This document shows, one piece after another, positions 13,627 through 15,630 of a stretch of 64,000 nucleotides of DNA. The position numbers and the translations under genes were made by a program. The stretch's first letter is position 1. Each line of letters begins with the position of its first letter. A model generated the notes under the pieces. It had not been told where the DNA came from. It saw only the letters and a list, made by a program, of their open reading frames with translations, and ran no database searches. The stretch comes from Mariniblastus fucicola. Its GTDB lineage: Bacteria; Planctomycetota; Planctomycetia; Pirellulales; Pirellulaceae. The stretch is from assembly GCF_008087665.1 (NCBI RefSeq), contig NZ_CP042912.1, positions 6,324,001 through 6,388,000 of the forward strand, written 5' to 3'.

Positions 13627-14517
13627 TTAGCGTCCGCGTCCGGGAGGGCCACCTCGACCGCCGGGGCCACCACCAGGAGGGCCTCCGCCGCCAGGACCGC
13701 CTTCGCCACGCTGTGGCATGCTTTCAGCAAACGCAGTCATCTCTTCACGGCTAAGTTTTCCGTCGCCATCTTTGTCGAACTCGAATGCGTGCTCAACGAT
13801 TTGTTCAGGTCCTACTTGACCGCCACGCTCTCCTCGAGCGCCACCGCGGGCACCACGCTCGCCTCGGCCACCGCGTTCGCCACGACCACGGCCGCCGGAT
13901 TCTGCGTCTCCGCCCCGACGACGATTGCGACCGCCTGCTGCAGGTTCGTCTCCGCCACGCTTGAGTTCATCAAGCTCTGACTGATCAAGAACTTCGTCTT
14001 TGTTTTTGTCCAGGTTCTCCATCACACGTTGCATGCGAGCTGGCAATTCGTCTTTCTCGATTTTGCCGTCCTCATTTTTGTCGAACGCCATCAATCGGCT
14101 GGCAAAGTCACTGGCTTGCTGACCGCTATCCGCCCCGCCGCCTGGTCCGCCCGGTCCGCCCGACCCGCCTCGTCCGGGACCGCCACCGGGAGGTCCTCCA
14201 TGACCGCCTGGGCCCTCGTTACCAGCACCTCCGGGAGGCCCCATTTGCCCGAGGTCTTCTTCGTTCAAGATTCCGTCGTTGTTTTTGTCGAGCGCTTTGA
14301 GAACTTTGGTTGCGTTGGCAATTTCTTCAGCCGAGATCGTATGATTCTGATCGACATCCAGTGCTGCGAGGATTGGATGTCCACCGCCACCGGGATGTCC
14401 TTCGCCCGGTCCGCCTGGTCCACCGCCGGGAGGTCCGCCTTGTGGTGGTTGCGCGAATGCGGTCGTCGCGGTGAATGCGATTGCAGCGACCGCAACGAAT
14501 GCTTCTTTCATGTTCAT
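13627..14517 (-). CDS. secreted EF-hand calcium-binding protein with Gly/Pro-rich linkers
   Basis: About 296 residues from the ATG at 14517, which has AAGGAC upstream, and a clear signal peptide (MNMKEAFVAVAAIAFTATTA, then FA). Five EF-hand loops can be read: DVDQNHTISAEE, DKNNDGILNEED, DKNEDGKIEKDE, DKNKDEVLDQSE and DKDGDGKLSREE, each with oxygen ligands at the expected spacing. They are joined by low-complexity GPGG/GGRGERG linkers and the protein ends in a Gly/Pro/Arg-rich tail. Such proteins are abundant in Planctomycetes; likely an extracytoplasmic calcium-binding or matrix protein. It has its own terminator and no operon partner. Sequence composition makes further similarity inference unreliable. 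Confidence 0.85.
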   Translation of the reverse strand: MNMKEAFVAVAAIAFTATTAFAQPPQGGPPGGGPGGPGEGHPGGGGHPILAALDVDQNHTISAEEIANATKVLKALDKNNDGILNEEDLGQMGPPGGAGNEGPGGHGGPPGGGPGRGGSGGPGGPGGGADSGQQASDFASRLMAFDKNEDGKIEKDELPARMQRVMENLDKNKDEVLDQSELDELKRGGDEPAAGGRNRRRGGDAESGGRGRGERGGRGERGARGGARGERGGQVGPEQIVEHAFEFDKDGDGKLSREEMTAFAESMPQRGEGGPGGGGPPGGGPGGRGGPPGRGR

Positions 14518-14586
14518 GGGCTGGTCCTTATTCAAGTTTGGTATTTGTTTTGTGAAGTTAAAAGTTGAGCGATATTCACGAGGCGT

Positions 14587-15630
14587 TCAATTTCCTCGCA
14601 TTCGTTTCCGTGCCGCAACAGATTCCGGATCTGTCTCTGGAATCTCCGACTCCCAATCGATTCCAAGCTTGATACCCAGATTGACATGAGAGTTGTGGTC
14701 TTTCGTGACACGCTTGCAATTCATGATCGCGTCGTTCAAAGCAGTTTTCAGATCCTTGTTCGAAACCGAGGAATCGAACTGAGCCAGAACTTTTCCGGAC
14801 AAGCCAAACTGCCCGGGTTCGACGATCAAAATTGAATGAGCTTTCGCGGCGTCACCTTCAATTCCTGTCAGCGTGACCATATCTTCGGCCCTGGTAGCTT
14901 TCGCATACGTGAATTGGCCGATGATTGAGTCATCGTTCCAGGCGAGCGGCACGAGTTTTTGTTCCAGTGCTGCAGCCTGTTCTTCGTCTTCGGAAGCCAG
15001 CACGACGATTGGGATAACGTCGGCGGCTGAAATATTCAAACCGATCTCAACGGATTCTGCGAATGGAAGTTGAGTGTTGTTTTGCGTCGATTCAGGATCG
15101 ACCTGGTACTGTTCGGCAATCTTGTCCATGCCCGCAGCCATCTGCCTGGCGTTTCGATACTCAAAGAATGGGCCTCGTCCTGCACGTGTCAGTTTCTTCT
15201 TGCCGTTGGGCGAAAGAATGGCAAACGTTGTGTTCTTCATCAGCCCGCTTCTATCGAGGTAAATCGACTTCATGAATTCGGCTTCTGCCTGGCTTTCGTA
15301 AGTCGCCAATCGGATGCAGACGAAGTTACGTGACGCTTTGACGACTTGTTCGTTGAACAGGAAACTCCTGTCAGTACCCTGCTTGCCCGGTCACCAAATG
15401 CCCGACACACCCAGGCACTGCGGCGCGGCGGAAGTAAACAGGATGGGACGATTGCTTCGTTCTGCTTCTGCAAGGCCGCTTTCAAGCGTGGCATACCAGG
15501 CAATGCGTGGGGCATCGGGTTCCTGGTTCTGACCGGGTGCCGGCGAAGCAAACGCGAACGCGACCGACGCGACAACTGCCGTCAGAATTCCGGCTTGCGT
15601 CAAACCCGTGAAGATGTAGCGATATTTCAT
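14587..15630 (-). CDS. exported thioredoxin-like protein with in-frame UGA (candidate selenoprotein)
   Basis: From the ATG at 15630 (GGGAG 5 nt upstream) the gene reads a signal peptide (MKYRYIFTGLTQAGILTAVV ...). It then enters a thioredoxin-like first strand and active-site region ending CLGVSGIW, then codon 80 is TGA (15391-15393). The same frame continues PGKQGTDRSFLFNEQVV and stays open to 14587 with normal coding character. The UGA follows a Trp, where thioredoxins have the first Cys of W-C-x-x-C, which is what a selenocysteine would replace. A SECIS-like hairpin lies 17 nt downstream. Alternatives are a simple nonsense mutation or two separate genes. The C-terminal 200 residues match no family I recognise. 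Confidence 0.7.
15354..15373 (-). promoter_or_regulatory. candidate bacterial SECIS hairpin
   Basis: On the minus strand, 17 nt after the in-frame UGA, the RNA can fold TGACAGGA-GTT-TCCTGTTCA: six uninterrupted pairs, then a one-base bulge and two more pairs. The 3-nt loop begins with G. The loop starts 25 nt after the UGA. Known bacterial SECIS elements have a stem of at least 4 bp, a short loop with G in its first two positions, and about 16-37 nt between UGA and loop, so the fit is good. Chance hairpins of this size are not rare. Confidence 0.5.

Follow-up and report, generated by a model that had tools for sequence, protein, structure and literature searches.

The closest described systems to the locus considered here are thioredoxin-like selenoproteins and thiol-disulfide proteins of the thioredoxin fold. 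The nearest known family is that of the Trx7/PDZ selenoproteins (NF041199), in which a Thioredoxin_7-type N-terminal domain carries selenocysteine (Sec) and which, by its family name, also bears PDZ domains. Sec is likewise found in the thioredoxin-like VPGUxxT selenoproteins (NF041382 and NF041383). The DsbH/DsbD-gamma/AGR-type domains (2ju5, 3f9u, 2fwe, 9i3f) have a similar fold, and tandem thioredoxin folds are known from the protein disulfide isomerases (PDI) and ERp44. For the bacterial SECIS element, a 2026 review gives a rule of a 3-9 nt loop with G in loop position 1 or 2, a stem of 4-16 bp, a distance of 16-37 nt from the UGA and an energy of at most -7.5 kcal/mol (PMC13188914).

The gene described here lies on the minus strand (14587..15630) of the window, by which is meant the whole 64-kb stretch of DNA that was analysed. 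It is read as a selenoprotein gene whose product has 347 residues, codon 80 giving Sec. The frame runs from 15630 to 14587 through 79 codons, a TGA at 15393-15391 and 267 sense codons to a final TGA stop at 14589-14587, and a sequence resembling a ribosome-binding site (GGGAG) is found 5 nt upstream of the ATG at 15630. Residues 1 to ~30 (15541..15630, minus strand) form a probable signal peptide as judged by eye. The single in-frame TGA at codon 80 (15391-15393) with the frame continuing beyond it, as reported in the preliminary description, is confirmed in the sequence, and so is the long continuation in the same frame, except that the 268 codons counted there include the stop. The length of a read-through frame was dropped as evidence for a selenoprotein, since an open frame alone is weak proof in a window with 15 comparable frames that hold one TGA (preceded by at least 70 open codons and followed by at least 150, the selenoprotein gene included). 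Three of the 15 have at least 267 codons after the TGA, among them the selenoprotein frame and its own downstream continuation. The reading preferred here, which we hold with high confidence, is that of an exported selenoprotein with SECIS-guided Sec at residue 80 and two thioredoxin folds, belonging to a family found in no catalogue searched and engaged in thiol/selenol redox chemistry. Comparison with related sequences makes Sec at codon 80 itself highly probable.

The assignment of the in-frame UGA (15391..15393, minus strand) as Sec is supported by the retention of TGA in relatives. Among 294 genomes of the phylum, 46 gave matches, and 43 of these matches, in 39 genomes (own genome included), both reach the site and have the in-frame TGA. 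In alignment A1, made of the window gene and 29 of the other matches with TGA, the codon occupies one column in 30/30 rows. When GTDB species genomes were scanned with a profile based on an alignment, 143 relatives were found, where a single-sequence scan of the genome contigs had found none. The best 80 of the 143 were examined and all 80 have TGA at codon 80; their record titles name Planctomycetota, Verrucomicrobiota, Obscuribacterales/Melainabacteria, Eremiobacterota and Armatimonadota. Counting the 30 rows of A1 with the 80 named GTDB loci (the best 80 of 143), TGA is thus present at 110/110 loci, window included, or 90 distinct ones after 20 exact duplicates (180 bases compared) had been merged, and the alignment of relatives shows a protein conserved on both sides of the UGA.

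Within the window's order the gene is rare and patchily spread, since only 6 of 196 genomes gave a match. These comprise TGA forms in the own genome, G402 (two copies), G398 and G406, a Cys form in G441, and a weak partial match only in G306, so that the order search adds four TGA forms (L135, L137, L138, L140) and one Cys form (L136). The preliminary description had pointed to homologues with either Cys or TGA at codon 80, and both occur, the Cys being that of L136, the sole full-length relative without a stop. The resulting tally is 94 distinct Sec forms (the 90 and the four from the order) against one Cys form, the GTDB part being the best 80 of 143. The forms L137, L138 and L140 make up a divergent subfamily with VFUPGYT in place of WUPGK. 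On a verrucomicrobial contig (L100) the gene is present in two tandem copies (~558-1499 and 1686-2585), and one homologue (G052 C33:18983-19923) is split into two overlapping matches, a frameshift being probable. Six weak site-covering relatives from the phylum search (L156-L161, E 9e-7 to 9e-4) have neither Cys nor Sec at the site. These remote planctomycete thioredoxin-like proteins keep the strand of C105 and contain no stop, but lack both C72 and U80; they are apparently redox-dead by their sequences, so that a non-redox branch appears to exist.

An AlphaFold2 model built on 70 aligned sequences (pLDDT 96, pTM 0.93; the folding alignment drops 2 incomplete and 9 closely similar sequences from the 80 loci) predicts a protein of two tandem thioredoxin folds. 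The predicted N-terminal domain (residues 41-179; 15094..15510, minus strand) holds C72, U80 and C105 and is Thioredoxin_7/DsbH/DsbD-gamma-like, with Z 11.5 to 3f9u and Z 11.0 to DsbH (2ju5). The C-terminal part had been described as unlike any recognised family. In the model and the alignment it is instead a probable second thioredoxin fold (residues 186-303; 14722..15075, minus strand) without a CxxC active site, with Z 9.5 to a designed thioredoxin over 98 residues (rmsd 2.6). A profile search of PDB sequences gave three weak matches and nothing useful.

C72, U80 and C105 are present in 70/70 alignment rows, as is W79, and P81 in 69/70, giving a family motif of the type AAPxC-x7-U-P-G-[KY]. 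The Sec had been placed after Trp at the first Cys of a W-C-x-x-C motif. The Trp is indeed kept, but the motif is not of the W-C-x-x-C type with U for the first Cys, because Lys or Tyr takes the place of the second Cys and the conserved partner Cys is found 8 residues ahead of U. Neither a CxxC nor a UxxC active site is present, the alignments showing U80-P-G-K/Y. In the predicted model U80 is the last residue ahead of the active-site helix, and between the strand and this helix a short hairpin is inserted that holds C72, while the usual cis-Pro position reads N-T in a manual alignment.

These features suggest a mechanism in which SelB, guided by the hairpin just past the UGA, would insert selenocysteine at residue 80. 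U80, which opens the active-site helix in the place of the attacking Cys of thioredoxins, would act as nucleophile, and the invariant C72 in the inserted hairpin may serve as the resolving thiol, so that a C72-U80 selenenylsulfide would form and be reduced by some extracytoplasmic thiol system. By analogy with PDI-like a-b pairs, the second thioredoxin domain may help in substrate binding. Conservation and predicted secondary structure make a C72-U80 redox couple the reading we lean towards, and for the exported protein a role as thiol/selenol oxidoreductase or peroxidase is the likeliest. A less probable role, which nevertheless keeps some weight, is that of a metal or metalloid chaperone or detoxifier in which Sec is a ligand together with C72, and perhaps C105, and not part of a redox couple. 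Three invariant Cys/Sec positions and the missing second Cys of the CxxC would suit such a protein, as would the N-T at the cis-Pro position. Loss of the cis-Pro favours metal binding in the thioredoxin fold. Against this role, the fold is closest to those of thiol-disulfide proteins, though a fold shows no function.

All four of selA, selB, selC and selD, the genes named in the preliminary description, are present in the own genome, which is a single contig. The tRNA-Sec (70.1 bits; ARAGORN anticodon tca), selA (555 bits) and selB (356 bits) all score over their cut-offs. The same is true of selD (265 bits), which is fused to an oxidoreductase domain and also matches the 'fusion_not_SelD' model, below the cut-off of that model. 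In one relative (L109, 5905-7791) selB directly precedes the selenoprotein gene, both on one strand, and L120 is alike by similarity. Across the phylum, with presence per genome read by eye from the table of matching genomes, a strict threshold gave tRNA-Sec in 37/39 genomes with a TGA form (own included) vs 158/255 of the remaining genomes (Fisher p 1.5e-5, related sequences being treated as independent). The TGA-bearing genomes short of tRNA-Sec are drafts, one with a 49-bit match only (G280) and one with none over the cut-off (G030).

The single Cys form is informative in this respect. It has TGT at the Sec site in one continuous frame, and its genome (G441) has no tRNA-Sec above the cut-off (best 40.3 bits), in contrast to the TGA-bearing G398, G402 and G406 with 70-72 bits; the NF041199 protein of G441 is likewise a Cys form. 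In a tree of 74 proteins, from which L137 was left out, L136 is nested among Sec forms (support 98/81 and 99/94) on a long branch of 1.23. This placement is compatible with Cys derived from Sec, to be taken with the caution that applies to long branches. Decoding of the UGA as an amino acid other than Sec, by readthrough or reassignment, would not account for the Cys in the only full-length stop-free relative, whose genome has no tRNA-Sec above the cut-off, or for the co-occurrence of tRNA-Sec with TGA forms, and the gene's own terminal stop is also TGA; we consider such decoding very improbable.

Downstream of the UGA, the window has a SECIS-like hairpin (GACAGGA-GUU-UCCUGUU; 15356..15372, minus strand) of 7 bp with a 3-nt loop whose first base is G, supported by the conservation of pairing and of codons. 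It begins 18 nt past the UGA, with the loop G 25 nt past it, and its form among relatives is GACAGGA-GUU-UCCUGU[CU]. The G-first 3-nt loop at 25 nt had been noted before and proves to be not only present in the window but conserved among relatives. The window hairpin agrees with the SECIS rule of the review, its energy of -7.5 kcal/mol being borderline (PMC13188914). Codon usage in the hairpin departs from that elsewhere in the same genes, with AGT for Ser +9 (79/79 vs 9.8%), AGG for Arg +8 (59/64 vs 6.2%) and CTG for Leu +11 (72/80 vs 32%), a bias that reveals selection on the RNA. The mean number of pairs formed in the 90 sequences is 6.66/7, compared to 3.99 (maximum 4.28, 300 trials) in shuffles in which the same proteins were rewritten with background synonymous codons. 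The loop G is present in 85/90 sequences and absent from the expected place in 5/90, with a mean of 34 and a maximum of 45 in the shuffles. Pairing reaches 95% at the true partners vs 31-57% with slid partners, and all six inner pairs are formed in 62/90 sequences. Compared across these sequences, the hairpin emerges as conserved and SECIS-like, and both it and the retained TGA go far past what chance would give.

At least 5 of the 7 pairs lie inside the lowest-energy fold in 80/90 sequences and fewer than 5 in 10/90, the window being among these ten. Its RNA has a different pairing as the lowest-energy fold (-12.4 kcal/mol, z -1.06, with 37/200 shuffles equally good), and single-sequence RNA folding was dropped as evidence for this reason. 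In the divergent subfamily (L137, L138, L140) a hairpin is found at the same place in other codons, with 5-6/7 consensus pairs and a G-first loop. In the Cys form 3/7 consensus pairs remain, and its 5-bp hairpin has no loop G (-2.9 kcal/mol).

This nucleotide constraint at SECIS distance also bears on the possibility of two proteins, in which the UGA would be a true stop and a shorter product would start downstream, for example at TTG 15309, from where a 240-aa ORF does exist. Such a split would fall inside the predicted thioredoxin fold, between strand and active-site helix, and between the flanking W79 (70/70 rows) and P81 (69/70), and the Cys relative is one unbroken frame, all of which leaves this explanation with very little probability. 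A pseudogene or sequencing error, by which a sense codon was mutated or misread to TGA, would suit a frame with a single TGA in a window where such frames are common (15), but is effectively discounted by a TGA kept at 110/110 loci in several phyla with both flanks conserved.

The neighbours that were annotated give no clear pathway. An EF-hand, Gly-rich, secreted-looking protein is encoded next to it (13627..14535, minus strand), and a similar neighbour occurs in L052, L054 and L055, which is an association only. Neighbour clusters in 81 loci, some of them short-flanked, include this EF-hand type (4), a second EF-hand type (9), a sulfatase-like type (16) and DUF3500 (9). The EF-hand and DUF3500 labels come from scans of 1-2 members and the sulfatase label was given by eye. 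The second EF-hand cluster is that of nine verrucomicrobial loci (L100, L104, L109, L112, L118, L120, L127, L130, L131), eight of which have DUF3500 nearby and eight a sulfatase-like gene. Sulfatases are numerous in these phyla, and the sulfatase-like cluster may therefore be background.

The preferred reading of a selenoprotein carries several implications. With 94 distinct Sec forms and one Cys form (GTDB part best 80 of 143), the family lends itself well to testing why Sec is retained. A tentative explanation, possible but short of probable, is that the family is fixed for Sec across several phyla, its chemistry needing selenium and the gene therefore surviving almost only in Sec-decoding genomes. 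Replacement by Cys would then demand that the whole protein be rewritten, as seen in the long-branched form of G441, and the selenenylsulfide would be of the C-x7-U type, carried on the inserted hairpin beside an inactive thioredoxin domain. Wherever the UGA is taken as a stop, the genes have probably been recorded as truncated or split, and annotations of planctomycetes and other phyla thus probably miss an exported redox protein. With its nucleotides conserved in several phyla, the hairpin further provides a large natural data set on SECIS recognition by SelB.

With regard to known families, the window protein scores 21.3 bits against Pfam Thioredoxin_7 (PF13899), for which the gathering score is 27, and 28/30 members of A1 match that family at E 0.01. 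No model of NCBIfam release 20 matches the window protein. The Trx7/PDZ model NF041199, with a curated cut-off of 300 bits, matches 16/30 members of A1 weakly (best E 2.4e-5) and does not match the window protein at E 0.01 or 0.1; PDZ is not among the three families matched by any of the 30 members at E 0.01. Filing under NF041199 was rejected on these grounds, together with the C-x7-U arrangement in place of CxxU. Among the places listed for the own genome, only one gene (L141, C1:3324384-3325532) is above the NF041199 cut-off (433.8 bits), a second selenoprotein gene with an in-frame TGA in FRCERUADC. Another NF041199 protein (L142, G044 C255:25973-27142) has two in-frame TGAs three codons apart, in FRUEPUKDC. 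Table 1 of the 2026 review lists 119 families, Trx7/PDZ among them, and no entry that could be equated with the window family (PMC13188914). The listings of the literature searched show no description of the family, although it may already be listed among the planctomycete selenoprotein candidates in the supplementary material of PMC4807772. The suggestion of a new selenoprotein family is supported by the lack of an NCBIfam model for the window protein and of an equated entry in the 119-family catalogue.

The likeness to NF041199 was followed in five of its members (L141, L142, L147, L150, L153). Both families have an FVC[VI]R strand with its Cys, and the Asp found 7 residues past the Sec/Cys in the window family is also found in 4/5 of these members, L147 having Tyr. 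On the helix side U pairs with U in a manual reading, the gap having been put elsewhere by MAFFT. The sampled members of NF041199 have [CU]-x2-[UC]-x2-[CG], whereas the window family has C-x7-U with Lys/Tyr at the second position and an inserted hairpin, and a predicted second thioredoxin fold where NF041199 has its PDZ domains. The VPGUxxT families are more distant, with another Sec motif by their name and weak matches in 1/30 and 4/30 members of A1 (NF041382 and NF041383, respectively), the best E being only 0.0017. Compared to the DsbH/DsbD-gamma/AGR-type domains, the predicted N-terminal fold is alike (Z 9.8-11.5 over 115-122 residues), but identity is 9-19%, CxxC is absent, Sec stands for the attacking Cys and an extra thioredoxin fold follows. 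The PDIs and ERp44 share the tandem folds and give the best Foldseek E-values (from 4.6e-5), but as whole chains they superimpose poorly (TM by query length 0.24-0.29, rmsd ~16-22), so that the mutual arrangement of the domains is not common to them and the window protein. The family is thus a new one of a known kind, and what sets it apart is that, among the forms examined, it is almost purely Sec.
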